A DNA stretch of 64,000 nt from Vicinamibacterales bacterium (lineage in GTDB: Bacteria > Acidobacteriota > Vicinamibacteria > Vicinamibacterales > Fen-181), in contig DASXVO010000081.1 of assembly GCA_036504215.1 (NCBI GenBank), forward strand, positions 1-64,000. Direction: 5' to 3'. Of this stretch, positions 43,506 to 64,000 are shown one piece after another (position 1 is the stretch's first letter; each line of letters starts with the position of its first letter). Made by a program: the position numbers and the translations under genes. The notes under the pieces were generated by a model that saw only the letters and a program-made list of their open reading frames with translations, made no database searches and was not told where the DNA came from.

Positions 43506-45044
43506 ATGAAGACTGACCGCTATCACCTGAGAGTCTCGCCGCGCCTCCGGCTCGGCATCCTGGCGACGTTGATTCTGGCCGTTGGCGTGCTGGCTGGCTG
43601 GACGGCATCTGGCTCGGCCGTTGACGCAGCCTCTGCTCGGGCCGTCGCCACGGTCGCCACCGACACGCAAGCGCCAAACCCTGCTATCGGGCCAAGGGCC
43701 GCGATCACCGGCCCACAGGCCTCGTACGCCGACCTGGTGAGCCAGGTCGGACCCGCCGTCGTGACGATCCGGTCGGAGCGGCTCGTCCGGGCGACGAGTT
43801 CGCCGTTCGGCGGCGACGAATCACTGCTCGAACAGCTTCTCGGACGCCAGGGGCGGAGGACGCCCCGGCAACGGCCGCATGAAGAAGGTGCCCTCGGATC
43901 CGGCGTCATCGTCGCTCCGGACGGGTATATCCTGACCAACCATCACGTCGTGGACGGTGCCAGCCAGATTCGCGTCGAACTCACCGACCGCCGGTCGTTC
44001 AGCGCGAAGGTCGTTGGCTCCGATCCGCCGAGCGACCTGGCACTGCTGAAGATCGATGCCGCCGGCCTTCGCACCCTGCCGCTCGGCGACTCCGACCGCG
44101 TGCGCGTCGGCGACGTCGTGCTCGCCATCGGCAACCCGCTCGGCCTGGGCCAGACAGTGACGATGGGCATCATCAGCGCGAAGGGCCGCGCGACCGGACT
44201 GAGCGACGGGAGCTTCGAGGACTTCCTCCAAACGGACGCGCCGATCAACCAGGGCAACTCCGGAGGCGCCCTCGTGGACACCCGCGGCGAGTTGGTCGGC
44301 ATCAACTCGCAGATCCTGTCGCCCTCGGGCGGCAGCATCGGGATCGGGTTCGCGATTCCGGCACGGATGGCGCAGAACGTGATGCAGCAGTTGATCAAGA
44401 ACGGCACCGTGCATCGCGCGAAGCTGGGCGTGACCGTGCAGGCCGTCAACTCGGAACTCGCGAAGAGCTTGGGACTCCAGGATGTGCAGGGCGCGCTCGT
44501 GAGCACCGTCGAGCCGGGCAGCCCGGCTCAAAAGGCCGGGATCGCGCGCGGTGACGTCATCCTGACCTTCAATGGCGAGACGGTCAGCGACAGCAACGCG
44601 CTCCGTAATCGCGTGGCGGGCAGCCAGCCTGGGACCGATGCGACACTACAGGTCGTGCGCAACGGCCGGCAGGAGACGATCCACGCACGACTGGCCGAGC
44701 TGGAGCGGGAGCGCGCCAGGTCGAACGACGACCGTGACGACGGGCCGAACCGTGGACGCTATGGCCTCTCGGTCGCACCGCTGACACCCGACATCGCGGA
44801 CGAACTGGGCGTCAAGGCGAAGCAGGGTCTCGTCGTGCAGGATGTGGCCCCGGCCAGTCCCGGCTCGAACGCAGGCATCCGATCGGGCGACGTGATTGTC
44901 GAAGTGAACCACAAGCCGGTGGGCAACGTGAGCCAGTTCCAGGAAGCAATGAGCACCTCATCGAACCGCCCGGCGCTGGTGCTCGTCAACCGGCAGGGCA
45001 GCGAGGTGTTCCTGGCGCTGTCGGCGAAATCGTCGTCGTCATAA
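43506..45044 (+). CDS. HtrA/DegP-type periplasmic serine protease with two PDZ domains
   Basis: A 512-residue protein. The N-terminal anchor/signal (LGILATLILAVGVLAGWTAS) leads to a trypsin-like domain with the triad in ILTNHHVVDG (His), SDLALLKID (Asp) and NQGNSGGALVD (Ser). The two PDZ domains start near residues 300 and 415 (KLGVTVQAVNSELAKSLGL, YGLSVAPLTPDIADELGV). It degrades or refolds damaged envelope proteins. It lies 91 bases after the sensor kinase with a putative regulator box between, suggesting envelope-stress control. Confidence 0.95.
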   Translation: MKTDRYHLRVSPRLRLGILATLILAVGVLAGWTASGSAVDAASARAVATVATDTQAPNPAIGPRAAITGPQASYADLVSQVGPAVVTIRSERLVRATSSPFGGDESLLEQLLGRQGRRTPRQRPHEEGALGSGVIVAPDGYILTNHHVVDGASQIRVELTDRRSFSAKVVGSDPPSDLALLKIDAAGLRTLPLGDSDRVRVGDVVLAIGNPLGLGQTVTMGIISAKGRATGLSDGSFEDFLQTDAPINQGNSGGALVDTRGELVGINSQILSPSGGSIGIGFAIPARMAQNVMQQLIKNGTVHRAKLGVTVQAVNSELAKSLGLQDVQGALVSTVEPGSPAQKAGIARGDVILTFNGETVSDSNALRNRVAGSQPGTDATLQVVRNGRQETIHARLAELERERARSNDDRDDGPNRGRYGLSVAPLTPDIADELGVKAKQGLVVQDVAPASPGSNAGIRSGDVIVEVNHKPVGNVSQFQEAMSTSSNRPALVLVNRQGSEVFLALSAKSSSS

Positions 45045-46482: not shown

Positions 46483-48369
46483 CTACCCGATCGTCATCGT
46501 CTTGGTCACCTTCCCGGCCTTCAGCGACTGATAGGTCACGGTCAGTGCGCCCTTGCCGCTGACCAGGAACTGATACTCGACCTTGCCGTCACCCGGCACC
46601 TGGAGGAACTGCACGTCGGGGCGGTACTCCTTGTAGGCGACGGTTTCGATCGGCGCCCCTGTGACACGGCCGCCCGCAATCACCTTGGTGGTGCCGCCCG
46701 ATACCTTCAGCGTATCCTGCGGATGGATCTTCCGCTGCACCGCGGTGTAGGTCATCGAGGGAATCGATCCGGCGTTCACGACGCGCACGCGGATCTTGTA
46801 GAGGTCCGCGCTCACTTTCTCGGGTGCCAGCACATCGAGGCTGACGTTCGGCGTCTGACCGGCTGCGAACAGCACCGCGGACGCGTTGCGGTACGCGAGG
46901 TCGGCCAGCATGAACGGGTGCGGCAGGCGCGAGCTCATCTTCACCCAACCCCCGATCTCGATGTCGCCGAACTGCGGATGCTTGAACGGCTTCCACGGCT
47001 TGTACAGGTCCCCCTGCGTCACGTGATCGTTGAACGCCAGGCGTTCCCGTTCCTGCGCGATGTTACCGCCCATCATGTCCATTTCGTCGGGCGGCGGCGG
47101 AACCGGCGCTCCCGGCTTCGGCGGCTGCCGATACGTCTCGGTCTCGCTCATGAACAGCTCGCCCACGAAGCTGTACGAGCCGACGATGTTGTCCGTGAAG
47201 TCGGTGAAATCGCCGTAGGTGGGATAGAGATCCTTCCACGCCACGAGATACCGGTAGCCCGGCACGATCTTCTCGGCGTTCTTGCCGAGGATGTCGTACA
47301 CCGCGATGTCGGCCGGGTTCAGCGGCTCCTCGGCCTTCGTGCTCGGCCCTCGAAGATACATCCCGGCGGCGTTGTGGAACGCGTAGACGACGAGGATGTT
47401 GGGCCGGTCGCTGAGATACTTGGCGATGGCCCGCATCGGCGCCGCCTCGAAGGGATAGTCACCCGAGCCGGCTTGCACGTACGGCGGCGCCCAGTTCACG
47501 CCCCAGTTCCGGTTGCCGTCCAGGTACCCCTCGCCGTCCTCGTTCACCTTCCCGTCGCCATCGTTGTCGATGCCTTCTTCACCGAGAATCGTCCACTCGC
47601 CCTTCTCACCCGGCTTGACGCGGACCATGAGGCGCGGATCCTCCGGGTCGGTCTTCCACATGCCGAACGGGTCTTTCCGCCGCATCGTGCAGATGTTCCC
47701 GTCACCGTCGAGATCGTCCGGACCATCCTCGTCCACGAGCCCGTCATGGTCGTCGTCTTTCGGGACGCGTATGCTGCGGTTCGAGCTCGGATCGTTGGCG
47801 TCGTTCAAGAAATGGAAGCGCCCGTCCACGTTCACCGAGGGAACGACATAGAACGCGTTGTGGTCGACCAGCTTGGTGAGCTGGTCGTTCGTTCCGTAGC
47901 CGGTGAGCAACCGGTTGAGGACCGCCAGGCAGACCTCGCCCGCCTGGATTTCATTGCCGTGGATGTTGCCGTCCACGTAGACGCCGGGCTTGTCGAGCGC
48001 GGCGCCGGTCTTCGGATTGTTCACGGTCATCGACCAGATGTCGCGGCCTTCCTCGCTCTTGCCGATGCTCTCGACGGTGGTGAACTGCGGGTACGCGTCG
48101 TGTAGCGCCTTGAGCGCCTCGCCGATCTGCTCGTAGGTGTAGTAGTGGTCGAAGCGCAGTGGGACGGTGATCTTCTCCGTTGTGATCCCGAGCTGGACCG
48201 GCGGCTTCTGGACGGCCGCGCCCTGTGCCTTGCCCGCCGGCGCAGCCTGACTCGAGCCCGCAGCCGGTTTCTGAGTCGCCGGCCTGGCGCCCTGGCCGAT
48301 CATCGGCGCGGTCGAGAACGCGATGAGCGCCACCAGCGTGGTCGTGCCAATCGAATGCAGGCCTCTCAT
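46483..48369 (-). CDS. Secreted M14 zinc carboxypeptidase (active-type)
   Basis: A 628-residue protein with a signal peptide. The peptidase M14 domain has GNIHGNEIQAGE (HxxE, near residue 136), the second His in VYAFHNAAGMYL, and the catalytic Glu in SFVGELFMSETE. Acidic Asp-rich inserts (DDDHDGLVDEDGPDDLDGDG and DNDGDGKVNEDGEG) look like dockerin-type Ca2+ loops. The C-terminal domain (about 500-628) is beta-rich. It is the second gene of an M14 pair; its ATG overlaps the stop of the upstream paralogue. Confidence 0.88.
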   Translation of the reverse strand: MRGLHSIGTTTLVALIAFSTAPMIGQGARPATQKPAAGSSQAAPAGKAQGAAVQKPPVQLGITTEKITVPLRFDHYYTYEQIGEALKALHDAYPQFTTVESIGKSEEGRDIWSMTVNNPKTGAALDKPGVYVDGNIHGNEIQAGEVCLAVLNRLLTGYGTNDQLTKLVDHNAFYVVPSVNVDGRFHFLNDANDPSSNRSIRVPKDDDHDGLVDEDGPDDLDGDGNICTMRRKDPFGMWKTDPEDPRLMVRVKPGEKGEWTILGEEGIDNDGDGKVNEDGEGYLDGNRNWGVNWAPPYVQAGSGDYPFEAAPMRAIAKYLSDRPNILVVYAFHNAAGMYLRGPSTKAEEPLNPADIAVYDILGKNAEKIVPGYRYLVAWKDLYPTYGDFTDFTDNIVGSYSFVGELFMSETETYRQPPKPGAPVPPPPDEMDMMGGNIAQERERLAFNDHVTQGDLYKPWKPFKHPQFGDIEIGGWVKMSSRLPHPFMLADLAYRNASAVLFAAGQTPNVSLDVLAPEKVSADLYKIRVRVVNAGSIPSMTYTAVQRKIHPQDTLKVSGGTTKVIAGGRVTGAPIETVAYKEYRPDVQFLQVPGDGKVEYQFLVSGKGALTVTYQSLKAGKVTKTMTIG

Positions 48370-50432
48370 CGCACACCTCCCGTCGGAACGCCGAGGTTGA
48401 TTCTCGACGTGTCACCCCACGCGCTGGACGAGTCCAACGTCACATCGAGGCCCGTCACCGTGGCGGGCACCTGGATGAGCCACTCGAGCTTCACGCTCCG
48501 GCCCCCATCGATTTCGGCGATTGGGGTGCGCGTGCGCCCGGAGAGGAACGTGACGTCCTTCGGCGACAGCGTCACCACCGCGGGCGGCGTGTGCAGGTTC
48601 TTCCTGCCCATCGCCGTCGGGAACGGCAGATACCCGCTGTTCTCGATCCACAACTTGACCGCATATACGCCCGCGCCTTTCGCCTGGACGTCGGACTTGA
48701 GGATCTTCAACCTCGGGAGCTTCTTCGCCAGTTCCAGGACCCACGGCACCTGCCCATCGAGCAAGGTCTTCACCATCGGTGCGGGCGGCGTCGTGTCGGT
48801 GAACGGCGCCATGCCGCCGATTTCGACCTCCCCGAGTTGCGGGTGCTTGAACGCCGTCCACTTGATGAAGCCCTTGCCCTGGAGTTCCTTGTCGCTGAAC
48901 GCCAGGACGGCTTTCTGCGTTGGGTCGGCGCCCGTTGCATCCTTCGGCTTCGGCATCTGTTTGAGCATCCCCGCCATCTGCTTCGGCGTCATCTTGCCGG
49001 CCTTCACCCCCTCGAGCAGCATGGTCGCCTTGATGTTGTCCGGCGCGCCAACCTCTTTCAGGAACGCCGCGATCTTCGCCTCGCCGAGCGCGACGAAGGC
49101 GTCCGGTGCCATCGCCTCGAGTGTGTCGGCCGTGATACCCGTCTTCTCCTTCTCGTCCGCCTTCACCTCGGGCACCGTCCAGAGGTCCATGCTGAACGTC
49201 GGCACGCCAAGGTGGTAGTACGACCACAGCTCGAACGACCCATCCTTGGGTTGCGGTGGCTCGAGCCGCTTGGCATCGAGCTTGTTGGTCTTCAGGAACT
49301 CCTTGTATTTCTCCGACAGTTCCTTGTAGACCTTGAGGTCGTCCTCGAGCGGGTTGACGACCGCACCGAGGCCGAGGAAGCTCCCAATCATGCTCTCGGT
49401 GATCTCGAAACCTGGGGGGGCGAGCGGCCGCACCATCTCGATGATCTCCTTCATCGAGTACGTACGGTTCGGGTCGGCGCCGAAGCGCGCGGCGATCCGC
49501 TCGGGCACTTTGATCGAGTTGGCGTCGAAGCTGCCCTGCCGCCCGCCAGCCGGCGGCTGCAGACACATGTTGGTGGCGCCGAAGGCGAACGTCATGGCGA
49601 TCTCTCGGTGATCGGTGACGAACTTCATCAGGCCGAACGTCTCCGGCTCGCTGCCCGGCCAGCGGCCGCCGGTCGTCGTCCACGAATGGAAGAGGTGCGG
49701 GAAGGTGATGCCGATGTTCGTGCCGCCCGGCCCATCTTCGTTGAACACGCCGTCGCCGTCGTTGTCGATCCCCTCCGAGTAGAGCTTGTAGATGCCCTTC
49801 TCACCCTTGGCGGTGTCAGCCTTCCGCATCAGGCGCGGCTCGCCATCCACGGGCATCCACTCACCCGCCGGGTCCTTCACGCGCATCTCTGTGATGAGGC
49901 CGTTGCCGTCCAGGTCGTCCGGACCGTCCTCGTCGGTCTGGTCGTCCATGTCGTCATTGATCTTCGAGGCGTTCCGTTCGTCCGCGACGAGCGGCTTGCG
50001 GAAGTAGTGCGCCGCGGCGTCGGGGCTGCCGTTCGGCACGATGAACCAGGTGAGTGTCTTCGTGGCCCCGGGGTCCTGCAACAGCCGTTCAGCAAGCGAG
50101 AGGGCAGCTTCCGTGGAAATCGGGTAGATGCCTTCGAGATTGGCCACTACGAGGACGGCGGGCAGTTTGCGCACCTTCGCGCCGGTCTCGGGGCCGATCT
50201 CCAGCAGGTTGACGTCCGTGCCGCCGGGGCTGACGGCGAGCCTGTGGAGCGCCGTGCTGCCCGGGTTCGCCTTCGCGATGGCGGTGAGCGCCGCATTCAC
50301 CTCGAGCGGCGCATGATAGCGATCGAACGTGACGCCAATGCCCGTCTTCTGGGCGTGCGTCGCCGTGCCTGCCATGACAAGGGCCGTCGCAAGGGCCAGC
50401 GCCAGCAGGCAGCGTTGCGAAGTAGTGGACAT
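48366..50432 (-). CDS. M14 carboxypeptidase paralogue lacking catalytic residues
   Basis: A 688-residue secreted paralogue of the next gene. It shares the opening fold (FDRYHAPLEVNAALTAIAKA against FDHYYTYEQIGEALKALHDA), the same Ca2+-like loops (DEDGPDDLDGNG, DNDGDGVFNEDGPGG), and the tail (FIKWTAFKHPQLGEVEIGG). At the zinc site VANLEGIYP replaces GNIHGNE, FGATNM replaces FHNAAG, and SMDLWTVPE replaces GELFMSE, so it is almost certainly not a peptidase. Translational coupling (ATGA) to the active enzyme suggests a binding or chaperone partner. Start ATG 50432. Confidence 0.82.
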   Translation of the reverse strand: MSTTSQRCLLALALATALVMAGTATHAQKTGIGVTFDRYHAPLEVNAALTAIAKANPGSTALHRLAVSPGGTDVNLLEIGPETGAKVRKLPAVLVVANLEGIYPISTEAALSLAERLLQDPGATKTLTWFIVPNGSPDAAAHYFRKPLVADERNASKINDDMDDQTDEDGPDDLDGNGLITEMRVKDPAGEWMPVDGEPRLMRKADTAKGEKGIYKLYSEGIDNDGDGVFNEDGPGGTNIGITFPHLFHSWTTTGGRWPGSEPETFGLMKFVTDHREIAMTFAFGATNMCLQPPAGGRQGSFDANSIKVPERIAARFGADPNRTYSMKEIIEMVRPLAPPGFEITESMIGSFLGLGAVVNPLEDDLKVYKELSEKYKEFLKTNKLDAKRLEPPQPKDGSFELWSYYHLGVPTFSMDLWTVPEVKADEKEKTGITADTLEAMAPDAFVALGEAKIAAFLKEVGAPDNIKATMLLEGVKAGKMTPKQMAGMLKQMPKPKDATGADPTQKAVLAFSDKELQGKGFIKWTAFKHPQLGEVEIGGMAPFTDTTPPAPMVKTLLDGQVPWVLELAKKLPRLKILKSDVQAKGAGVYAVKLWIENSGYLPFPTAMGRKNLHTPPAVVTLSPKDVTFLSGRTRTPIAEIDGGRSVKLEWLIQVPATVTGLDVTLDSSSAWGDTSRINLGVPTGGVR

Positions 50433-50507: not shown

Positions 50508-52313
50508 CTACGTGCGAACTCGGGCGTTCGTTCCCGCAATCCGCGACAGCACCGCCACCGACTCGATGTGGGCGGTGTGGGGAAACATGTCGACCGGTTG
50601 GACGCGGTCGATCGTGTAGCTCCGGGGCGGGATCGCCGCAAGGTCCCGGGCGAGCGCCTCCGGATTGCAGGACACGTAAACGATCCGGCCCGGGCGGATG
50701 TCGTGAACGATCCAGTCGATCACCTGGCGCGGGCAGCCCTGCCGCGGCGGGTCGAGGACGACCGCATCCCACGGTGCACGTGCGTCCACCGACCGAGTGG
50801 CGCGGGCGTCCACCGACCGAGTGGCGCGGGCGTCCCCCGACCGAGTGGCGCGGGCGTCCCCCGACCGAGTGGCACGGGCGTCCCCCGACCGAGTGGCACG
50901 TGCGTCCCTCGTCCGAGTGGCACGGGCGTCCCCCGACCGAGTGGCACGGGCGTCCCCCGACCGAGTGGCACGGGCGTCCCCCGACCGAGTGGCACGGGCG
51001 TCCCCCGACCGAGTGGCACGGGCGTCTCGCCCGTGGAGTGTGCGCATCGCCTCTTCCACGCGCGCGGCGACGAGCCGGAGGCGTCCGACCGGAATGCGGT
51101 TCAACCGGGCCGCCGCCGCCGCGCTCTCGATCGCCTCGCGGTTTTCCTCGGCTGCGGTCACCGTTCGACCGTCGAGCGCGAGCGGCAGCGCAAACAGCCC
51201 CACGCCGGCGTAGAGATCGAGGATCCGCTCGTAGCGCGGATCGGACAGCGCCCCGAGGACCTCGCGCACGAGAAGCTCGGCCGCGCGGACGTTCGTCTGG
51301 AAGAACGACGTCGGTGAGACGAGATACGACACGTCCCCCACGCGTTCGCGCAACTGCGACAGACCGAACAACCGTCGCGTGTCGCGCCCGAACAGGAATG
51401 GCCCCGGCCGATCGTTCACGTTCAGGTGGAAGCCGAACCTCCCGGTCTCGGCCGTCTGGACGTCGGCGGTGACTCGACGGAGCACCTTCACGTTCTCGGT
51501 GACGACGAGTGTGGCCAGCATCTCGTCGGAATGCTCCGCCACGCGGACCACGACGTGGCGGGCGACGCCGTCCCCACCGCTTGGCGCGCTGCCCGACACG
51601 TGCGCACGTTCCAGTGCGTCGCGCAGTCGGAACGCGAGACGATTGCCGGGTTCGGCGTGAACCGGGCATTCCTCGATGGGGAGAACCGCCCGGGACCCTC
51701 GGCGGTAGTGCCCCATGACGATCGCCTGCAAGGGCCCGCCTGGCCCGAACACGAAGTGCACCTTGTCGCGATACGCCCACGGGGCACCCGGGGAACCCGG
51801 AGCAACACTGGGCTCTCCGGACCGAGTGCCTCGGGCGTCCTCGGAGGGAGTGGTTCGAGGGTCGTCGGAAGGAGTGGTTCGAGGGTCCTCGGACCGAGTG
51901 GCACGGGCGTCCTCGGACCGAGTGGCACGGGCGTCCCGCCCGTGCGGGGCGCCATTCGGTGTCGCCAGCGTCAACTCGACCCGCGGCGCCCGCCGTCCCA
52001 TGGCCTCGTCCAGCAATTCCTGGAGCAACCGCTGCTTCAGCCGCAGTTGTTCAGGGTAGGCGATGTGCTGCCAGGCGCAGCCACCGCATGATCCGAAGTG
52101 ACGGCAGGCGGGCGTGACGCGGTGGAGCGATGGCGAGACGATGCGTACGAGCTCGGCAGCGGGCCGGTCCAGCCTGTCGCGACCGAGGCGCACCTCGACG
52201 CGTTCCCCCGGGATGGTGAAGGGAACGGACACGGATCGTCCATCGACGTCCGCGACCCCGTCCCCCTCGAGATCGACGCGAAGGATCTCGACGATCCTCG
52301 TGTCGCCGCTCAT
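50508..52313 (-). CDS. RumA/RlmD-type RNA 5-methyluridine methyltransferase with repeat insertions
   Basis: A 601-residue protein; the family is normally about 430-470. It has a TRAM domain (about 1-60), 4Fe-4S cysteines (CRHFGSCGGCAWQH plus ECPVH), the SAM motif ILDLYAGVGLFALPLA, DPPRQG, nucleophile Cys in YVSCNPEAL and Glu in HIESVAVLS. Two blocks of an octapeptide repeat (R-S-G-D-A-R-A-T) are inserted: one before WAYRDKVHFVF, one directly before WDAVVLDPPRQG. All catalytic residues are kept, so it may still work with two floppy loops. Its start overlaps the RNB gene stop (ATGA). Confidence 0.9.
   Translation of the reverse strand: MSGDTRIVEILRVDLEGDGVADVDGRSVSVPFTIPGERVEVRLGRDRLDRPAAELVRIVSPSLHRVTPACRHFGSCGGCAWQHIAYPEQLRLKQRLLQELLDEAMGRRAPRVELTLATPNGAPHGRDARATRSEDARATRSEDPRTTPSDDPRTTPSEDARGTRSGEPSVAPGSPGAPWAYRDKVHFVFGPGGPLQAIVMGHYRRGSRAVLPIEECPVHAEPGNRLAFRLRDALERAHVSGSAPSGGDGVARHVVVRVAEHSDEMLATLVVTENVKVLRRVTADVQTAETGRFGFHLNVNDRPGPFLFGRDTRRLFGLSQLRERVGDVSYLVSPTSFFQTNVRAAELLVREVLGALSDPRYERILDLYAGVGLFALPLALDGRTVTAAEENREAIESAAAAARLNRIPVGRLRLVAARVEEAMRTLHGRDARATRSGDARATRSGDARATRSGDARATRSGDARATRTRDARATRSGDARATRSGDARATRSGDARATRSVDARATRSVDARAPWDAVVLDPPRQGCPRQVIDWIVHDIRPGRIVYVSCNPEALARDLAAIPPRSYTIDRVQPVDMFPHTAHIESVAVLSRIAGTNARVRT
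50777..51035. repeat. 24-base tandem array in frame inside the RNA methyltransferase gene
   Basis: Eleven units of 24 bases lie in the methyltransferase frame, reading out as DARATRSG-type octapeptides on the minus strand. Units differ at only a few positions. The right end is a hairpin, CACGGGCG (51017-51024), TCT, CGCCCGTG (51028-51035). The unit length is a multiple of three, so the frame is preserved. Confidence 0.92.
51817..51945. repeat. Second 24-base tandem array in the same gene, more diverged
   Basis: Five to six 24-base units, some degenerate (DPRTTPSD variants), end in the same hairpin: GCACGGGCG (51925-51933), TCC, CGCCCGTGC (51937-51945). It lies about 780 bases from the first array, in the same frame and orientation, but at a different place in the protein. 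Confidence 0.88.
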
Positions 52314-53879: not shown

Positions 53880-56618
53880 ATGGTCGAAGTCCACCGCACC
53901 GTTTGCCCGCGGAACTGCTACTGCACCTGCGGCATGCTCGTCACCGTCGACGACGGTCGAATGACGCGCATCGAGGGGGATCCGCTGAATCCGGCCACCG
54001 GCGGACACGTCTGCCTCAAAGGTCTCAGCTACGCGCGGCGTCTGACGACAGCACAGCGGTTGCTGCATCCGCTCCGGCGGACGAGCGGCGGCGACTTCGA
54101 ACGCGTCACGTGGACCGAGGCACTCGACGACATCGCCGCTCGACTCGGCCGGTTGCGCGATCGACGCGGACCGGAGTCGGTGCTCTACTACGACGGCTCT
54201 GGAAGCCACGGTGCGCTCAGCCGTTTATCGATGGCGTTCTGGCATCAGTTCGGAGGGTGCACGCTCGCCTACGGAGACCTCTGCTGGCCGGCGGGGCTCG
54301 AAGCCACACGGCTCACCTACGGCGCGAACCTCCACAACCACCCAAGGTCCACAATCGAGAGCCGCTTCATCCTGCTCTGGGGACACAACCCGGCCGAGAC
54401 CAACGTCCACCAGATGCGACTCATTCACGAGGCCCAGGAACGGGGTGCGACAATCGCGCTCGTCGACCCGCGGAGCACCGATACCTCGGACGCCGTGGAC
54501 ATCCACCTCCAACCACGACCGGGCACCGATGCTGCGCTCGCGCTTGGCGTCGCCAGGGTCATCGTGGATGCCGGGCTGCACGACCAGCGGTTTCTCGACG
54601 CGCATGCGGCAGGGGTGGACCGCTACCTCGCGCGCCTGGCGGAGTATCCGCTCGACCGCGTGGCCAGCATCACGGGCGTGCCAGCCGCTGCCATCGAGGA
54701 GCTTGCGCTCGCCCTTGCCCAAACAAAGCCTGCGCTGCTCATCGCGGGTTTCGGCCTTCAGCGGCATCACCGGGCGGGCCAGACGATGCGTGCGGTTGCG
54801 CTGCTGCCGGCGCTCACCGGAAACATCGGCGTACCGGGCGGAGGATGGCAGTACGCGAATCTCAACAGCCACTGCCTGGTCGATCCGCCCTTGCCACCCG
54901 AGCCCGAGGCAATCCGGCGCGCGTTTCCCATGTCGCGGCTCGGTCCCGGCCTGATGGCACTCGAAGCACCTCGTGTGGCGGCGGCCTGGATTGAGAAGGC
55001 GAACCCGGCCAGTCAGAACCCGCGCGCAAACCTCGTGAGGGACGCGCTCGCGAGCCTCGATCTCCTGGTTGTCGTCGATCAGTTCATGACCGACACTGCC
55101 CGTTTGGCGCACTACGTCCTGCCTGCCAAGACGATGTTCGAGGAAGAGGATCTCGTGACGGCGTACTGGCATCCGTACCTCCAACTTCGTACGAAGATCT
55201 TCGACCCGCCGGGTGATGTGAAGACGGAAACCGAGATCTGGCGGCTGTTGTGCGAACGGTTTGGCCTCGACACCAGCTACTTCCCGCGGGACGCCAGGGA
55301 GATCCGACGCCTGCTGGAGGGGATGCTGCCGGACACTCAGGACCGGCCGGGCACGTTGGACGCCGCTCGCAGTCCGATCGACGAACTCCAGCACGGCCCA
55401 TGGGACCCGACGGGCCGAGGCGACGTCGCGTTTGCGGACCTGAGCTTCGCCACCCCGTCCGGCAAGATCGAGTTCGCCTCGGAAGAGGCCGAGCGCCGGT
55501 GGGGCGTCGCGCCGGTGCCCGACTACGAGCCGCTGGACGAGGGGCACGAAGCCGCGAGCCTCACCCGATTTCCGCTTCAGTTGCTGTCGTGCAAGACACG
55601 CGACCGGATCCACTCGCAATTCGGCAACCTGGACTGGCTGCGCGAGGTCGAGCGACCACACCGGCTCGACATGCATCCGGACGATGCGCGGGGGCGTGGT
55701 CTGAATGACGGCGACCGCGCGGTGGTGTGGAACAGCCGCGGGCGCGTCGAACTCGTCGTGCGGCTCGATGAGGGCTTGCGGCCAGGCGTGGTGCACGTGC
55801 TCGAGGGCCGCTGCCACGACGGTGACCCGGACATCAACGTCCTGACCGATGCCGGCGTCACCGACATGAACCACGGGGCCACGTTCTACGAGTGCCTGGT
55901 CCAAGTCAGTCGGGGTGACGGGCATTCAGTCCCTTCGAACGCACCTGGCACCTCGCACTCAGTGTCTATCAGCGCACCTGGCACCTCGCACTCAGCACTT
56001 TCCAGCGCACCTGGCACTCAGCACGTAGCACCCAGCACTTTTCTCCTCGATCTCCACCGCTGCCTCGGCTGCGGCGCATGCGTGCTCGCGTGCCGGCTGG
56101 AGAATGGCTGGCCCTCGTCCGCACCCTGGCGGCGCGTGCTGCCGCTCAACCTGCGCCGCCGTCCCGGAGGTCCGACATACTTCTTCTCCGTCGCCTGCCA
56201 TCACTGCGATCGGCCGGCGTGCGTGACTGCGTGTCCGTCGGGTGCCTACGAGAAGCGTGCGGATGGCGTGGTCGTGCACCACGACAAGAAGTGTCTTGGC
56301 TGCCGCTACTGTGAGATGGCCTGTCCGTTCGGTGCGCCGCGTTACGATGCGGAACGAGGCGTGATGGCGAAGTGCGATCTGTGCCATCACCGTCTGGATG
56401 CCGGCGTGAAGCCTGCGTGTGTCGTTGCCTGTCCGACCGAGGCGCTGCGACTCGTGCAGCCGGGCCAGCCAGGGGAATCGATGGCGCCGGCAGGGGCGCC
56501 GGTGCCCGGTTTCGCCGATCCAGCCGGATGCAGGCCGAATCTCAGGTTCCTGATGCCGCGGGGCCGGCGCGCGTCGCTGCTGAAGGCGCTACGGTCTCGA
56601 CTGTCGACTCTCGACTGA
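53880..56618 (+). CDS. Fused molybdopterin oxidoreductase (DmsA-like) and 4Fe-4S protein (DmsB-like)
   Basis: A 912-residue protein. Residues 1-680 form a Mo/W-bisPGD oxidoreductase: RTVCPRNCYCTCGMLVTV and GGHVCLKG give a 4Fe-4S cluster site, followed by the dinucleotide-binding regions and a C-terminal cap (IHSQFGNLDWLREVE, FYECLVQVSR). Residues 722-912 are a DmsB-type ferredoxin (CLGCGACVLAC, CHHCDRPACVTACPSGAY, CLGCRYCEMACPFG, CDLCHHRLDAG...CVVACPTEAL). The roughly 40-residue joint is a repeat array. No Tat signal is seen, so the active site probably faces the cytoplasm. With the DmsC-like gene it would form a quinone-linked reductase or dehydrogenase; the substrate is unknown. Confidence 0.88.
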   Translation: MVEVHRTVCPRNCYCTCGMLVTVDDGRMTRIEGDPLNPATGGHVCLKGLSYARRLTTAQRLLHPLRRTSGGDFERVTWTEALDDIAARLGRLRDRRGPESVLYYDGSGSHGALSRLSMAFWHQFGGCTLAYGDLCWPAGLEATRLTYGANLHNHPRSTIESRFILLWGHNPAETNVHQMRLIHEAQERGATIALVDPRSTDTSDAVDIHLQPRPGTDAALALGVARVIVDAGLHDQRFLDAHAAGVDRYLARLAEYPLDRVASITGVPAAAIEELALALAQTKPALLIAGFGLQRHHRAGQTMRAVALLPALTGNIGVPGGGWQYANLNSHCLVDPPLPPEPEAIRRAFPMSRLGPGLMALEAPRVAAAWIEKANPASQNPRANLVRDALASLDLLVVVDQFMTDTARLAHYVLPAKTMFEEEDLVTAYWHPYLQLRTKIFDPPGDVKTETEIWRLLCERFGLDTSYFPRDAREIRRLLEGMLPDTQDRPGTLDAARSPIDELQHGPWDPTGRGDVAFADLSFATPSGKIEFASEEAERRWGVAPVPDYEPLDEGHEAASLTRFPLQLLSCKTRDRIHSQFGNLDWLREVERPHRLDMHPDDARGRGLNDGDRAVVWNSRGRVELVVRLDEGLRPGVVHVLEGRCHDGDPDINVLTDAGVTDMNHGATFYECLVQVSRGDGHSVPSNAPGTSHSVSISAPGTSHSALSSAPGTQHVAPSTFLLDLHRCLGCGACVLACRLENGWPSSAPWRRVLPLNLRRRPGGPTYFFSVACHHCDRPACVTACPSGAYEKRADGVVVHHDKKCLGCRYCEMACPFGAPRYDAERGVMAKCDLCHHRLDAGVKPACVVACPTEALRLVQPGQPGESMAPAGAPVPGFADPAGCRPNLRFLMPRGRRASLLKALRSRLSTLD
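55919..56041. repeat. Repeat array forming the joint of the fused oxidoreductase
   Basis: Units built on AGCGCACCTGGCACCTCGCA and CTCAGCACTT are repeated about four times with small changes. They are translated in frame as APGTSHSV-type peptides between the DmsA-like and DmsB-like parts. A related copy is at 43380-43434. All units keep the frame open. Confidence 0.85.
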
Positions 56619-56674: not shown

Positions 56675-56700
56675 CTAAGATGCCGTCGAGAGCAGTCATC

Positions 56701-57534
56701 ATGAACGACACTCGGTCGGCGCGCAGGACGGCGGCAACTCCTTTCCACGAGTGGCCGCTCGTGGTGTTCACGACGCTCGCCATCGTCGGCGCGGGACTGC
56801 TGGCCACGCCGCTTCTGGCTGCACTGGCTGCAGGTACGCCCGCACCGGCGTTTGCGGCGCTACCGTGGGGTGCACTGCTTCTCGGCGCCGGCCTCGTGGT
56901 GTCGCTGGCGCATCTCGGAAGGCCGCTTCGCGCACCGCTCGCAGCGCGACGTCTCGGCCGCAGCCGCCTCAGTGCGGAAATCGTCCTGGCCAGCCTCACG
57001 CTCATCGTCGGCATCGTCGCGGCGAGCCTGCCGTACGTCTCGCCGTTGCTCGACCTCTCGGCCGCCGTGCTGGCGCTGGCGTTCCTCGCCTCGCTCGGCC
57101 TGGTTTACAACCTGCCCGGCCAGCAGACGTGGCGGGGCGCAGTGGTGTGGATGCCGCTCAGCGCCGGAATCGGATTCGGCGCTGTGACGCTGTGCGGCAT
57201 GTGGGACGGTGCGATCGTCACCGTCGGTGGCATTGCGGCGATCGTGCTGGCGGCTGACACGGTCCTCTTCATCCTGAGGCGGTTCGCGCTCGTGTGGTCT
57301 TCCACTCCCATCGTGCCAGTGGATGCCGCACTGTTCGCCAACCGACAGTGGTTGCTCGCCGCGCGGTTCACCCTGGTGGACATCCTGCCGGGCCTGCTGC
57401 TGTTCGCCGACCTGCCCAGAGGCGCTGCCGGCCTGCTGGCCGTCGGCATCCTCCTCGACCGCCTGATGTTCTACGGCTTTGCCTCGCAGCAGACGACCGA
57501 GAGGGAGATTGCACAGGCGGAGGCGATGATCTGA
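56701..57534 (+). CDS. DmsC-like membrane anchor subunit
   Basis: A 277-residue protein with about eight TM helices, matching the DmsC/NrfD-type quinol-reacting anchors: FHEWPLVVFTTLAIVGAGLL at the start, SLAHLGRPLRAPLAARRLG, LGLVYNLPGQQTW and FTLVDILPGLLLFADL. It anchors the fused catalytic/electron-transfer protein and exchanges electrons with quinone. ATG 56701 is preferred over 56680, which lies at the end of a repeat. Confidence 0.87.
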   Translation: MNDTRSARRTAATPFHEWPLVVFTTLAIVGAGLLATPLLAALAAGTPAPAFAALPWGALLLGAGLVVSLAHLGRPLRAPLAARRLGRSRLSAEIVLASLTLIVGIVAASLPYVSPLLDLSAAVLALAFLASLGLVYNLPGQQTWRGAVVWMPLSAGIGFGAVTLCGMWDGAIVTVGGIAAIVLAADTVLFILRRFALVWSSTPIVPVDAALFANRQWLLAARFTLVDILPGLLLFADLPRGAAGLLAVGILLDRLMFYGFASQQTTEREIAQAEAMI

Positions 57535-57822
57535 GACGGCATTCACCTCACCAAACCAAGCACGTCACCGCGCCGGGCGTCGTCCTGCCTGCGATGAACC
57601 GCGACCAGTAGCCACAGTGGACCTGTCGCCGCGTTGCACGCTTTCCACCCGACCTGCACACTAATCGCTCGGCGCTCGACTCTGTCGGGCGCAGCGTGCG
57701 CGACAATTCCCTTCGGCAGCCGGCGACCGCCGCCTTGCCGCGGCACACCGAGGTTGCCGGCGCGACGGCGGAGGCGAGGAATCAGCCTTGCCCGACCGCG
57801 GCCGCCAGCGGCGAGGGTCACC

Positions 57823-58635
57823 ATGTGCTGCACCGATCCCCTCATCTCCTGCCTCAAGGCGTTCGGCTACTCGATCGTCCGGATGCCCACGAGCGATCTC
57901 GAGCCGCTGCAGTTGATGCTGCGGTCCGGCCGCGCGCTCGAGCGTCTCGGCGGCCTCGATGCCGTCCTCCTGACGGGCCGGCACGCCCGCGTTCCGCGGA
58001 TCACCCGAAACCGTCCAGCTGCCGCCGTCACGGGTCGTCGGACGGGACAGCTCGACGCCGGCGTCGGCCTGACATTGCTCGGCTCTGTCCTCGCGGCGAT
58101 GGGCGGTTCCACCGTGGGTGTCGAGGCGGCGTACCGGTCGGCGCGGTCGGTGACGTTCGAATTCCAGGACGTCTCCGAGGATGCCATCGCGGTCGTGGAC
58201 CTCGACCAGTACCTGGCCGACGCCCGCGTCAACCCGCGCGCGCACCACGTCGCCACGCTGCTCGACCGCGACGATCTCTATGTCACCACCGCCGTCGTGA
58301 AGAGCCCGGCGATCACCGTCAGGGCGCAGGATGACACCGGGATCGACCTGTCGGTGACGGTACCGGCTCTTCAGCAACTCATCGGGGGCCGCGTGACCAT
58401 CAGTCCGGCGGACGCCCGGACATCCGCACTCACGTATGCGGGAGTCGTCCCGCTCGCGTTCGGCTTCCGGGCGGTCCGCCTCTTCTACGACCACGGCCGC
58501 TACGGCGCCTTCAAGCCGCTCGCGGCTGGCGAGGCGGCGCTTGGACGTGGCGACGCGGCGCCGGAGTGGTTGGTGGACGAGCGCCCGTTTGTGACCCTCG
58601 AAAATCGTCGCGACGAGGCACAAAAGCAGTTGTGA
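57823..58635 (+). CDS. Candidate bacterial gasdermin (bGSDM-like pore-forming protein)
   Basis: A 270-residue protein, the bGSDM length. It begins M-C-C-T-D, so Cys2/Cys3 could take the lipid reported on bacterial gasdermins, then DPLISCLKAFGYSIVRMP. The body matches my recollection of the bGSDM pattern: LEPLQLMLRSGRALERLG, LDAGVGLTLLGSVLAAMGGS, SVTFEFQDVSEDAI, DDLYVTTAVVKSPAITV, TVPALQQLIGGRVTIS and SALTYAGVVPLAFGFRAVRL. The last 25-30 residues would be the inhibitory tail removed by a protease. No protease gene is adjacent. ATG 57823 has a GAGGG upstream. The call rests on pattern memory, with no search behind it. Confidence 0.6.
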   Translation: MCCTDPLISCLKAFGYSIVRMPTSDLEPLQLMLRSGRALERLGGLDAVLLTGRHARVPRITRNRPAAAVTGRRTGQLDAGVGLTLLGSVLAAMGGSTVGVEAAYRSARSVTFEFQDVSEDAIAVVDLDQYLADARVNPRAHHVATLLDRDDLYVTTAVVKSPAITVRAQDDTGIDLSVTVPALQQLIGGRVTISPADARTSALTYAGVVPLAFGFRAVRLFYDHGRYGAFKPLAAGEAALGRGDAAPEWLVDERPFVTLENRRDEAQKQL

Positions 58636-59011
58636 TCCGGTCGCGCGTTCGCTAGACTGCAAAAGATCTGGCTGTCCAGACGCTCGTGCAGCGGGCGGCC
58701 GGTGGGGATGGTACCCGTGAAAGGTGACATGGAACCCCCAAGTTGCGGTGATTCACTAGTTGACTCGGCCCGGGTCCAGCGCGCCGTTGCGCCGGGCCAC
58801 CGCTCGGAATCTGCCCTGAGACGTCGACCCTAGGTCCCCGCCCCAGGCACATTCCGACGCCGGGCCCCAAACCTGGCAGAAGGGAATGTGCCGATGATCG
58901 TCTCGATCTTCCAGCACAAGACCGTCCTCATTCGACTCGCGACCGATCCGCCGTCTAGACGCTCGCGTCTGACCCGAGGAGTCCGCTCATGAACCTTCGG
59001 AGGCGACGGCC
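58636..59011 (+). promoter_or_regulatory. Long leader with strong hairpins upstream of the NRAMP-type gene
   Basis: There is no gene in these 376 bases, but they can fold well. GGCACATTCC (58846-58855) and GGAATGTGCC (58883-58892) are perfectly complementary, and inside them GCCGGG pairs with CCTGGC. Just upstream, GGCCCGG...CCGGGCC encloses GCGC/GCGC (about 58769-58800). The layout could be a metal-responsive leader or a terminator for the preceding gene. I could not match it to the M-box or yybP-ykoY consensus. Confidence 0.45.
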
Positions 59012-60316
59012 GTGTTCTGGATCAGCAAAGCGTTTCACTACCTGAATCGATTCCGGCGAAGACTGCTCGTCTTCTTTGCCGTGCTCGGCCCGGGTATCGT
59101 CGTCATGGTGGCCGACAACGACGCCGGCGGCATCTCCACGTATGCCGTCACGGGGTCGAAGTTCGGCTTCTCGCTCCTGTTCATGTTCATCCTCCTGGTG
59201 CCGATGGCGTACTTCGTCCAGGAGATGACGGTGCGCCTGGGCGCTGTGACAAAGCGTGGCCACGCCGAGGCGATCTTCGAGGGCTTCGGCCCGTTCTGGG
59301 GCTGGTTCTCGCTCGCGGACCTCTTTGTCATCAACTGGCTGACGCTCGTCACCGAGTACATCGGCATGACCGCGGCGATGAGCCTGTTCGGCGTGCCGGC
59401 CTGGCTGACGGTCATCGTCGTCACGGGCATCCTGTTCGCGGTCGTGCTCTCGGGCGAGTATTGGACGTTCGAGAAGATCACGCTCTTCTTCTGTCTGTTC
59501 AACCTGGTGTACATCCCGGCGGCGATCTGGACGATGGAAACGCCCACCGCGCCAGCCTGGAGCAAGGTGCTCGAGGGATTCTACCGGCCGAATCTCACGT
59601 TCTCGACGGAGTTGCTGTTCATCCTGATGGCGAACATCGGGACCACGATTGCGCCGTGGCAGATCTTCTTCCAGCAGAGCGCCGTCGTGGACAAGGGGAT
59701 CGAAGTCAAGGACATCGGGTTCGGGAAGTGGGACACGCTGGTCGGCGCGATTCTCACGTGCGCCGTCGCGGTCTTCATCATCATCGCGACCGGAGCGGCC
59801 TTCTACTACCACCACCCGGCGATCGTCATCGAGGACGCGCGGCAGACGGCCGAGGCGCTGGCGCCGCTCCTGCCGGCGGGCGAAGGCAGATGGGCCCGGA
59901 CGCTGTTTGCGATCGGCCTGTTCGACGCCGGATTCCTCGGCGCACTGTGCATTTCGCTCTCGACGTCGTGGGCCGTCGGCGAGGTGTTCGGCTGGGCGCA
60001 CTCGCTGAACAACAGCGTGCGCGACGCGCCCTGGTTCTACATGCTCTACCTGCTGATCCTGCTGACGTCCGGAGCCGTCGTGCTCATCCCGAAGGCACCG
60101 CTCGTCACGATCACGATGTTCGTCCAGGTGGTGGCGGTCACGCTGCTGCCGTCCGCCCTCGTGTTCCTGCTGCTGCTGTTGAACGACAAGGATCACATGG
60201 GGGAGCAGGTCAACACCCGTTGGCAGAATTTCGCCAACGGCACCATCGTCGTCATCGTCGTCCTGATGTCCACCGTGTTGGGCATCACGACGTTGTTCCC
60301 GACGCTGTTCGGATAG
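59012..60316 (+). CDS. NRAMP-related divalent metal (probably Mg2+) transporter
   Basis: A 434-residue membrane protein with about eleven helices of the NRAMP/LeuT fold. TM1 reads VVMVADNDAGGISTYAVTG where classical NRAMPs have DPGN, and TM6 reads MANIGTTIAPWQIFFQQ where they have MPH. Loss of the methionine is a mark of NRAMP-related Mg2+ carriers rather than Mn/Fe importers. GTG start with GGAGG at 58999. Ten bases separate it from a gene with MgtE-type regulatory domains, which supports Mg2+. Confidence 0.85.
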   Translation: MFWISKAFHYLNRFRRRLLVFFAVLGPGIVVMVADNDAGGISTYAVTGSKFGFSLLFMFILLVPMAYFVQEMTVRLGAVTKRGHAEAIFEGFGPFWGWFSLADLFVINWLTLVTEYIGMTAAMSLFGVPAWLTVIVVTGILFAVVLSGEYWTFEKITLFFCLFNLVYIPAAIWTMETPTAPAWSKVLEGFYRPNLTFSTELLFILMANIGTTIAPWQIFFQQSAVVDKGIEVKDIGFGKWDTLVGAILTCAVAVFIIIATGAAFYYHHPAIVIEDARQTAEALAPLLPAGEGRWARTLFAIGLFDAGFLGALCISLSTSWAVGEVFGWAHSLNNSVRDAPWFYMLYLLILLTSGAVVLIPKAPLVTITMFVQVVAVTLLPSALVFLLLLLNDKDHMGEQVNTRWQNFANGTIVVIVVLMSTVLGITTLFPTLFG

Positions 60317-60326
60317 GGGGGGACAC

Positions 60327-61643
60327 ATGGTCACTCTGCCGAAGAACATCCAGCGAACACCCGAACCGAACCCCGGCAACGGGCACGGCAGCGTGCCTCC
60401 GCACGGCGGTGGCAGCGTCCATTTCCTCAATTTCTCCGAATTGCTGAAGCGGTCCGTGGTCGCCGGCTCCATCCGCGACCGGATCGGCAAGCTCACCGAC
60501 CTCGTCTTCGCGCAGGCGGAGCCGTTCCCGGAAGCGGCGGGCGTCTTCATCGACCACGGTTGGGGCAAGCCGAGCGAGTTCGTACCCTGGGACAAGGTCA
60601 TCAAGATCGAGGACGATGCGATCTTCGTGCAGTCCGCCGGAGGGCCGTATCCACCGTTCGTGGACCAGCCGGGCTGGATCCTGGTGGACAAGCACCTGAT
60701 GGGCCGGACGATCCTCGACATCGACGGACGGCGGATCGAGGTGGTGAACGACGTGCGGTTCCTCGAATCGCACGGCCGCCTGCTGCTGGTGGACGTGGAC
60801 CTCTCGTTCAACGGATTCCTGCGGCGCTGGGGCCTGGGCCGGGTGCGTGTGACGGGCGACAAGCTCGTGTCGTGGAAGTACGTCCAGCCGCTGTCGCTCG
60901 AGGACGCGATTCCAACCGACCGCCTCAAGCTCTCGGTGACACGCGGCCAACTGCAGGACCTCCCCGGCGAGGACCTCGCGGACGCGCTCGAGGAACTGTC
61001 GGGCAAGGAGCAGCAGGCGCTGTTCTCGGCCCTCGATCCCGAGAAGGCCGCCGAGACGCTGACCGAGGCCGAACCGCGCGCCCAGCGGCAGATCATCGAG
61101 GACCTGACGAGCGACCAGGGACGCGCCATCTTCGACAAGATGACCGTGCTGCAACTCGCCAACCTGTTCGCATCGCTGCCGCAGGAGAAGACGCGCGAGG
61201 TCAGCGCGTGGCTGGGCCCGGTCCGCGCGAAGGCGGTGCACAACCTGCTGTCGGAACGGGAGGCGACGGCCAAGGACATGGTGTCGACCGGCTACGTCGC
61301 CAAGCCGAGCAGCGCGAAGGTGGCGGATGTCCTGCGCGACATCCGGGCGGCGAAGCACGAGCCGCGCAGCTTGTCGTATCTCTATGTCGTCGCCGACGAG
61401 GCCCCGGTGCTGCAGGGGATCGTGGACCTGCGCGACCTGGTCCTCGCGGCCGACGATGTGCCGCTGTCGGAGATCATGATCTCACCCGTGGTCGCCGCCC
61501 AGGAAACCGATCAGCGCGACGACCTCGAGAAGATGTTCGAGAAGTACGGCTTCAGCATGATTCCGGTCGTTGACGAGCAGGACCGCCTGTTCGGCGTGAT
61601 CCGCTACAACGACATCATGAAGGGACCGGAGCTCAATACGTAG
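60327..61643 (+). CDS. PRC-barrel/MgtE-N/CBS regulatory protein
   Basis: A 438-residue soluble protein. Two PRC-barrel-like domains (about 35-200; AAGVFIDHG...GKPSEFVPWDKV, MGRTILDIDGRRIEVVNDV) precede an MgtE N-terminal helical domain (about 205-305; DLPGEDLADALEELSGKEQQ, AAETLTEAEPRAQRQIIEDL) and a CBS pair (about 310-435; AKDMVSTGYVAKP, YLYVVADEAPVLQGIVDLRD, GFSMIPVVDEQDRLFGVIRY). In MgtE these domains sense cytosolic Mg2+ and close the channel; here the TM part is absent and the partner is the NRAMP-type transporter. Confidence 0.9.
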   Translation: MVTLPKNIQRTPEPNPGNGHGSVPPHGGGSVHFLNFSELLKRSVVAGSIRDRIGKLTDLVFAQAEPFPEAAGVFIDHGWGKPSEFVPWDKVIKIEDDAIFVQSAGGPYPPFVDQPGWILVDKHLMGRTILDIDGRRIEVVNDVRFLESHGRLLLVDVDLSFNGFLRRWGLGRVRVTGDKLVSWKYVQPLSLEDAIPTDRLKLSVTRGQLQDLPGEDLADALEELSGKEQQALFSALDPEKAAETLTEAEPRAQRQIIEDLTSDQGRAIFDKMTVLQLANLFASLPQEKTREVSAWLGPVRAKAVHNLLSEREATAKDMVSTGYVAKPSSAKVADVLRDIRAAKHEPRSLSYLYVVADEAPVLQGIVDLRDLVLAADDVPLSEIMISPVVAAQETDQRDDLEKMFEKYGFSMIPVVDEQDRLFGVIRYNDIMKGPELNT

Positions 61644-61836: not shown

Positions 61837-64000
61837 TCATTTCGAAGATGATGCCCGGCGGCGATGGATCACCTTCAGGAGTTCGAACCAGATGATGCTC
61901 GCGGTACCGACGGCCAGACAGAGCAGGACGTCCTGCAGCGTGAGGTACGAGAACCGGAAGACCGCGCGGATTGCCGGGACGTAGAGGGCCACGACGAGAA
62001 ATACGGCCGCACCACCAACCACCCACCAGAGCGCACGGTTCGGCGATCCAATCCTCGAGACAATCGTCTCCGACCACGATCGGTTCGCCAGGATCAAGCC
62101 GATGTTCGCCGCGATCAGTGTCGTGAATGACAGCGCCCGCGCCTCTTCCTCTCCCAGGCCTCTCGACTCCGCCACGGCGAACATGCCCGCGACGAGGACG
62201 AGCACCACCAGGCCCTGCAGCAGGCTGACGCCCAGCGTCCGGAGCCCGAACAGGCGCTCGCGCGGGTCGCGCGGCGGGCGGCGCATCACGTTGGCCTCCT
62301 CACCCTCTGCCTCGAACACCACCGAGCACGCCGGATCGATAATCAGCTCGAGGAAGACGATGTGCACGGGCAGCAGCGCGAGGGGCCAGCGGAACAGCAC
62401 CGGAAGGAGCGACATCCCGGCGATCGGAATGTGGATCGCCAGAATGTAGGCCATTGCCTTCTTCAGGTTGTCGAAGATGCGGCGGCCCAGGCGCACGGCC
62501 TGCACGATCGACGTGAAGTCGTCGTCCAGCAGGACGAGTGACGCCGCCTCGCGCGCGACGTCCGTGCCGCGCCCGCCCATCGCGATGCCAATGTGGGCGG
62601 CCTTGAGCGCGGGGGCGTCGTTCACGCCGTCGCCGGTCATCGCGACGACGTCACCGTTGGCCTTGAGTGCCTGGACGAGGCGCAGTTTCTGCTCCGGCAC
62701 CACGCGCGCGAAGATGTTCGTCGTCTTCACGCACGCCCGGAGCGCCTCGTCGCTCATGCCGTCGAGTTCCGCGCCGGTGACCACCGCATGCGTGGCCAGC
62801 CCCACCTGCCGGCCGATGTTCACCGCCGTCCCGGGGTAGTCGCCGGTGATCATCACCACCCGGATGCCGGCGGTTCCGCACTCCCGGACGGCGTCGACCG
62901 CAGTCGGCCGGACCGGGTCTTCGAGGCCCACCAGGCCCAACAGCTCGAACGTGAAGTCGTGCTGTTCTCCGGGCAGCGCCTCGGGCCGGATCGTCGCGCG
63001 CGCCACGCCAAGCACTCGAAGGCCATCGGCCGCCATTGCCACGACTTCCCCGGACAGCGTGGCCAGCTCGGCCTCGCTCAGGTGGCACAGGTCGGCGATC
63101 GCCTCAGGCGCTCCCTTGGAGGCAATCACGTAGTCCTCGGTCTCACGTGACTTCCACACGTGCGACATCGCCAGCAGGTGCTCCGACAACGGATACTCGC
63201 GAACGAGCGTCCAGTCGTCGTGCAGATGCTCTGTCTGCGCCAGGTAGCGCAATCCGAGCTGCTTGAACGCCTTCTCCATCGGATCGAACGGATCGCGATG
63301 GCTGGCAAGGATGGCGAACTCGACCACCTCGTGGAATGCTTCGGGCAGGCCCGCGCCGTCCGCCAGGATGTCGAGTGTGTGCCAGGGAGGCTCGCCAGGG
63401 ACAGAGTGGGCACGGGCGTCCCGCCCGGTCGGCAGGACAGACGAGCCGCCTGTCTCACTCAGCAGTTCCTGAGTGGCACGGGCGTCCCGCCCGTGGGAAG
63501 GGCCCGCGCACCCCAGTCGCCGCACCGCCATCTGGTTCAGCGTCAGCGTCCCCGTCTTGTCCACGCACAGCACGGTGGCCGCCCCGAGCGTCTCGATGAC
63601 CGGCACCCGGCGCGTCAACACCTGCCGCTGCGACAACCTCCAGGCTCCCAGCGCCAGGAAGATCGTCAGGACAACGGGGAATTCTTCGGGCAGCGTGGCC
63701 ATGGCCAGCGTGAGGCCGACCAGCAACCCCTGCAGCCAGTTCCCGCGCGTCAGGCCGTAGACGACCACGACGATGACGCAGAGCGACGCACCAAGGATCG
63801 CGAGGCGCCGCACGAGCTGTCCGGTCTCCCGCTCGACCGCCGTGGCTTCGGTCTCCACCGTCTGCAGCGCCCGGCCGATCTTCCCGAGTTCGGTCCGAGG
63901 CCCGGTGTGGCGAACCTGTGCGATGCCCTGTCCTTGCACCACGAGCGAGCCGGAGAAGACGAACGGCAGATCGTCCCCGCCAGGGCGTGCGGGCTCCTGC
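61837..64000 (-). CDS. P-type cation-transporting ATPase (Ca2+/cation type), N-terminus beyond window
   Basis: The frame is open to the right edge (first residues seen QEPARPGGDDLPFVFSGSL), so about 200 N-terminal residues are missing. It shows TM4 with LAMATLPEEFPVVLTIFLAL, the phosphorylation site CVDKTGTLTLNQM, the hinge AMTGDGVNDAPALKAAHIG, and six C-terminal TM helices. PEEFP rather than PEGLP sets it apart from classical SERCA, so the ion is uncertain. Directly after the phosphorylation site lies an insert (GPSHGRDARATQELL..., ...TGRDARAHSV) from the dispersed hairpin repeat. It is convergent with the 36-residue gene. Confidence 0.9.
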   Translation of the reverse strand, partial: QEPARPGGDDLPFVFSGSLVVQGQGIAQVRHTGPRTELGKIGRALQTVETEATAVERETGQLVRRLAILGASLCVIVVVVYGLTRGNWLQGLLVGLTLAMATLPEEFPVVLTIFLALGAWRLSQRQVLTRRVPVIETLGAATVLCVDKTGTLTLNQMAVRRLGCAGPSHGRDARATQELLSETGGSSVLPTGRDARAHSVPGEPPWHTLDILADGAGLPEAFHEVVEFAILASHRDPFDPMEKAFKQLGLRYLAQTEHLHDDWTLVREYPLSEHLLAMSHVWKSRETEDYVIASKGAPEAIADLCHLSEAELATLSGEVVAMAADGLRVLGVARATIRPEALPGEQHDFTFELLGLVGLEDPVRPTAVDAVRECGTAGIRVVMITGDYPGTAVNIGRQVGLATHAVVTGAELDGMSDEALRACVKTTNIFARVVPEQKLRLVQALKANGDVVAMTGDGVNDAPALKAAHIGIAMGGRGTDVAREAASLVLLDDDFTSIVQAVRLGRRIFDNLKKAMAYILAIHIPIAGMSLLPVLFRWPLALLPVHIVFLELIIDPACSVVFEAEGEEANVMRRPPRDPRERLFGLRTLGVSLLQGLVVLVLVAGMFAVAESRGLGEEEARALSFTTLIAANIGLILANRSWSETIVSRIGSPNRALWWVVGGAAVFLVVALYVPAIRAVFRFSYLTLQDVLLCLAVGTASIIWFELLKVIHRRRASSSK
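63403..63497. repeat. Two hairpin repeat copies in frame inside the P-type ATPase
   Basis: Two copies of the GGCACGGGCGTCCCGCCCG core lie at about 63409-63428 and 63476-63495, about 67 bases apart. The second is a perfect stem, CACGGGCG (63477-63484), TCC, CGCCCGTG (63488-63495). They encode GRDARA and HGRDARAT in the protein. Between them is unrelated text with its own GACAG repeats. Confidence 0.85.

Follow-up and report, generated by a model that had tools for sequence, protein, structure and literature searches.

A bacterial gasdermin gene without an adjacent protease, conserved within a Vicinamibacterales genus

The locus and its genes

Within the window, the whole 64,000-nucleotide stretch of DNA analysed here, a gene encoding a bacterial gasdermin (bGSDM) lies on the forward strand between genes for redox enzyme subunits and genes linked to metal transport, as follows:

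53880..56618, + strand: DmsA/DmsB-like fused molybdopterin oxidoreductase and 4Fe-4S protein, upstream flank (Pfam)
56680..57534, + strand: DmsC-like membrane anchor, upstream flank (Pfam DmsC, 44.9 bits)
57811..57816, + strand: Shine-Dalgarno-like GAGG motif before the bGSDM ATG (read in the sequence)
57823..58635, + strand: bacterial gasdermin gene, 270 aa (PADLOC, NCBIfam and PDB sequence matches)
57829..57831, + strand: codon of Cys3, preceded by Cys2 (its position matches the Cys that precedes (S/N)DP in 7N51/7N52)
58513..58587, + strand: linker, residues 231-255, the probable region of activating cleavage (alignments A2 and A4)
58588..58599, + strand: F256-x-x-L259, putative closing motif of the inhibitory peptide at the C-terminus, with an 11-residue extension after it (conserved in relatives' tails)
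58655..58905, + strand: non-coding leader of the Nramp/MgtE unit and right border of the gasdermin segment (three-species comparison)
59012..60316, + strand: Nramp-family metal transporter, downstream flank (Pfam, 256 bits)
60327..61643, + strand: PRC-barrel/MgtE_N/CBS protein, downstream flank (Pfam)

The open reading frame (ORF) runs from an ATG at 57823 to a stop codon ending at 58635 (+ strand) and encodes 270 residues, at the place and length that the original prediction had given and with both of the segments quoted there, MCCTDPLISCLKAFGYSIVRMP at the N-terminus and PLAFGFRAVRLFYDHGRY close to the C-terminus. An alternative TTG start at 57634 would give a 333-residue reading; the ATG is backed by the GAGG motif 8 bases upstream, by codon statistics and by the identical start residue in the congeners. 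The predicted surroundings, a DmsC-like gene and metal transporter genes, were also recovered by Pfam, which finds DmsA/DmsB-like, DmsC, Nramp and PRC/MgtE_N/CBS proteins, and the claimed lack of an adjacent protease holds both here (G000) and in G072 and G074, two congeners that share this gene order, where the genes adjoining the gasdermin are DmsC and Nramp rather than a protease gene. The nearest peptidases recognised in the window are two M14 zinc carboxypeptidases, encoded at 46483-50432 on the opposite strand, 7.4 kb off, while an HtrA-like trypsin-PDZ protein is encoded at 43506-45044, 12.8 kb from the gasdermin gene. The immediate neighbours being metabolic and transport genes, the gene does not lie in a defence island.

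The leader that borders the gasdermin segment (58655-58905) shows 90% mean column identity across three species. It contains a core, CATGGAACCCCCAAGTTGC, which is likewise found ahead of an MgtE-type gene in the sister genus (G076), and an inverted repeat, GGCACATTCC...GGAATGTGCC. An Rfam search of the gap between bGSDM and Nramp returned no match, and the single-sequence fold of the leader is not unusually stable (z -1.4). This leader is possibly an unannotated metal-responsive cis-regulatory RNA.

Two further observations concern the wider region. Tandem GRDARATRSGDARATRS-type insertions occur within an RNA methyltransferase ORF (window 50508-52313, - strand), and a P-type ATPase ORF (61837-63942) carries a shorter copy of the same type of repeat. 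Beyond the window, 7-9 kb downstream of the gasdermin gene, a stretch (L022 16316-18719, contig C81:65313-67719) holds short genes, among them one for an HTH protein, a DrmA-like fragment with a weak match (E 0.0015) and small ORFs resembling toxin-antitoxin genes, and is perhaps the remains of a decayed defence or mobile island.

Assignment to the gasdermin family

The human gasdermins are pore-formers that bring about the death of inflamed cells, and the bGSDMs are their bacterial relatives. A search of the Pfam library with the ORF gave no gasdermin match and only a meaningless hit to DUF7525 (E=0.49), so that the PADLOC and NCBIfam models were needed. The original prediction had proposed a bacterial gasdermin, to be checked by a profile search, and such searches agree with it: the PADLOC bGSDM profile PDLC02986 matches residues 2-257 (256 residues) with E=1.8e-72, and the NCBIfam prok_gasdermin equivalog NF051890 gives 194.2 bits, its cut-off being 100. 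Furthermore, phmmer against the PDB places the Vitiosangium bGSDM first (7N51, E=5.2e-39; 8SL0, 1.8e-38), followed by other solved bGSDMs. It is near certain from these sequence matches that the product of 57823-58635 is a bona fide bacterial gasdermin, and as such it adds another member to an already known family. The protein is compact (270 aa, with a tail of ~40 aa), lacks the large C-terminal domain of mammalian gasdermins, and is the single bGSDM in a genome of 5.92 Mb.

The AlphaFold model, built from just five sequences, has a mean pLDDT of 37, and with it Foldseek returns the bGSDM structures 7N51 and 7N52 as the sole significant matches (E 1.4e-8 to 3.6e-5); since the TM scores are just 0.26-0.31, the match is largely sequence-driven. 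The low pLDDT and the missing Pfam match are what might be expected of a chance ORF in GC-rich DNA or of a protein outside the gasdermin family, but even this poor model ranks only bGSDMs with significant E-values, and the PADLOC, NCBIfam and PDB sequence matches refute such a reading, to which we attach virtually no probability.

Compared with the Vitiosangium sp. protein (7N51, autoinhibited, and 8SL0), the present bGSDM aligns over residues 2-244 and shares the length class, the core motifs and the Cys before the S/TDP motif; the two are about 32% identical, however, align poorly in the tail past residue 244, and differ in the C-terminal extension of the present protein and in the lack of an adjacent protease at its locus. 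The Virgisporangium aurantiacum bGSDM (NZ_BOPG01000004.1, L053) is closer (40-43% identity), with the same tail closing motif and an MxC start, but its gene is followed after 2 bp by that of a 672-aa C14 caspase-like protease, for which the present locus has no equivalent. The Runella zeae bGSDM (7N52) belongs to the same family by sequence (E=5.8e-4) and shares Cys3; there a caspase-like protease is encoded alongside and the P1 residue is Leu247 (PMC9079055), whereas here no protease adjoins the gene and we propose Arg242 (R242) as P1. The Lysobacter enzymogenes anti-phage operon (PMC9079055) has the same type of effector, but within a four-gene defence operon rather than as a single gene amid metabolic and metal-transport genes.

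Lipidation site, linker and inhibitory tail

The N-terminal cysteine is palmitoylated in most bGSDM members. Cys3 of the present protein matches the residue that is palmitoylated in characterised bGSDMs (PMC10989679, PMC12547243), and a further cysteine, Cys10, is common to this protein and both congeners. At the other end, the core is conserved up to about residue 230 and gives way to a variable linker, beyond which a hydrophobic pair like that of F256-x-x-L259 is found in the tails of nearly all related bGSDMs examined. Linker and tail together diverge faster than the core (32% versus 59% identity between the present protein and that of G072).

Known bGSDMs are cleaved after Leu or Arg, about 20 aa before the C-terminus (PMC9612521). 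Within the present linker, R242 (58546-58548) is common to this protein, both congeners (G072, G074) and G128, its conservation being confined to these closest relatives, and lies 28 residues from the C-terminus, 11 of which are past the closing motif. We infer that R242 is the best candidate for the P1 residue of an activating cut.

Conservation and selection across the genus

The order DmsA-DmsC-bGSDM-Nramp is identical in both congeners with contigs that span the site, G072 (JADGOB010000067.1) and G074 (JANYLG010000172.1); the contigs of G071 and G073 end at or beside Nramp, so that absence of the gene cannot be read from them. The sister genus (G076) has an empty site, in which no bGSDM occurs: DmsA-DmsC is followed by 208 bp, after which come the leader core and an MgtE-type gene; the distance from DmsC to the leader core is 1194 bp in the window. 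Genes in L016, L020 and L053 were assigned by homology and ORF lists.

The gasdermin is under purifying selection, with Nei-Gojobori (NG86) dN/dS values of about 0.2-0.34 (0.22 for G072-G074 and 0.34 for the present gene against G072), similar to those of the flanking DmsC gene (0.33 and 0.27). That several relatives have a protease beside the gasdermin, and this locus has none, could be taken to mean that the gene is a decaying, functionless remnant of a lost bGSDM-protease operon. The ORF is intact in three species, however, and its start and tail motif are conserved, which together with the dN/dS values makes decay very improbable.

A separate feature of the G072-G074 comparison is that synonymous divergence is 0.09 for bGSDM and 0.62 for Nramp (L017 2-1204 versus L016 1989-3290), a jump which suggests that a recombination breakpoint lies between these genes or that the assembly is chimeric there.

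Related gasdermins and their partners

Bacterial gasdermins are rare in this part of the tree, being present in 9 of the 193 class genomes and in 4 of a phylum-wide sample of 396. A single-sequence search of genome contigs found no close bGSDM relatives; an eight-sequence alignment (A1) was too diverse as a query, while a four-sequence one (A2) retrieved four loci. Relatives were also sought in viral contigs, plasmids and phages, and none was found there; there is therefore no sign of mobile carriage.

Several of the related bGSDMs adjoin clan CD or trypsin-like proteases. In addition to the V. aurantiacum C14 caspase gene 2 bp downstream, these neighbours include a CHAT protease gene in G141, a sub-threshold CHAT in G512 and a C25-like protein in G342, while the G128 contig is cut beside the gasdermin gene. 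In the genus g85 (G188-G190) no protease was seen adjoining bGSDM, the G188 contig being short. A twelve-row bGSDM tree resolves few of the deep forks and is compatible with either one or several origins of the unlinked state.

Two of these lineages hold gene sets worth noting in themselves. In G031, the bGSDM gene has a TIR-domain gene on one side and a TPR-S/Trypsin_2 protease gene on the other (L015 6209-10573), and the set is apparently a complete defence cassette. The genus g85 has a conserved operon (L079 4695-8278, L080 4778-6968, L081 4469-8097) in which the gene of a compact C14 caspase stands next to that of a trypsin-like protein (combined with EAD1 in G189) and accompanies some very large ORFs; it may be regarded as a candidate conflict system and is also present in G186, which has no bGSDM.

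Candidate activators

Most bGSDMs share an operon with their protease. Because the present gene is not in an operon with a protease, its activator would have to act in trans. The original prediction had placed any activator elsewhere, which fits a genome-wide search that found one C14 protease and three CHAT proteins, all on contigs other than that of the gasdermin. The C14 protease (contig C5:73785-74606, Pfam C14 119 bits) is the genome's single compact metacaspase-type member and carries the catalytic His/Cys dyad motifs HYSGHG and DCCHSG. It has orthologues at similar positions in G072, G074 and G071, and within the genus it follows a redox operon rather than a defence locus.

Among the class genomes that have a bGSDM without a visible adjacent protease, a compact C14 protease occurs in five of seven (G000, G072, G074, G189 and G190), compared with just 4 of the 186 other class genomes (G071, G076, G038 and G186). 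The C14 search found none in G128 and G188, which both carry bGSDM. This co-occurrence gives a Fisher p of 1.2e-6 ignoring phylogeny and a p of about 0.003 for overlap at the genus level, and rests on two lineages only, in one of which (g85) the C14 gene belongs to the operon that G186 carries without a gasdermin; a crude test with any C14 protease is weak (p=0.044, also ignoring phylogeny). Caspase homologues prefer basic P1 residues (PMC8283722), and R242 as P1 thus agrees with a C14 protease. On these grounds the protease of contig C5 is the best single candidate for a trans activator, an assignment that we offer tentatively and that could well be wrong.

A host protease other than the C14, be it a general one of the cytosol or any of the three CHAT proteins, could also activate the gasdermin in trans, and we regard this as possible to about the same limited degree. 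Like the present genome, G071, G072 and G073 have CHAT proteins, and a CHAT protease is the adjacent partner of the G141 bGSDM; none was found, however, in the bGSDM-bearing genome of G074 (83% complete), nor is any CHAT gene linked to the gasdermin of the present genome.

The gasdermin might also be triggered without any host protease, by a protease of the invader or by a cleavage-independent redox or ligand switch. The lack of an adjacent protease in three species, the fast evolution of linker and tail and the shared Cys10 are compatible with such a trigger, and ancient eukaryotic gasdermins include cleavage-independent cases, although the activation of characterised bGSDMs requires cleavage (PMC12547243). 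The inhibitory closing motif is, moreover, retained in the tail, and fast change in the linker would also be expected at a protease-cut site. We therefore consider a trigger of this kind unlikely, though less so than decay.

Discussion

What is understood of known bGSDMs comes through the proteases encoded next to them, and an unlinked arrangement of caspase and gasdermin is found in animals. The reading that we favour, and hold to be quite probable, is that the gene encodes a functional bGSDM that is inhibited by its tail and activated in trans. From what is known of the family, the short C-terminal tail would hold the protein inactive and lipidation would probably fall on Cys3 (or Cys2). A protease, for which the C14 protein of contig C5 is a candidate, would cut the linker at about residues 231-255, with R242 as the best P1, and so release the tail; the freed core would then assemble into oligomeric pores in the membrane, with death or arrest of the cell as the outcome. 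Presumably this would serve as an abortive response to attack by phage or to some other insult. By analogy we infer the role of a stand-alone cell-death effector, as originally predicted.

The unlinked arrangement is unusual and is conserved within the genus, and it is this arrangement, rather than family membership, that is the interesting part of the finding. It is conceivable, though doubtful, that the lineage uncoupled its gasdermin from an operon protease, so that a chromosomally fixed, vertically inherited effector would respond in trans to a metacaspase encoded elsewhere, or else to several proteases, as in animals. The presence of an empty site in G076 and of protease-linked relatives in other lineages makes the history of the unlinked bGSDM testable. 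When purifying selection maintains a protease-less bGSDM across a genus, one is led to ask how such a protein is activated, and the locus may provide, in bacteria, a model for caspase-gasdermin pairs whose genes are unlinked.
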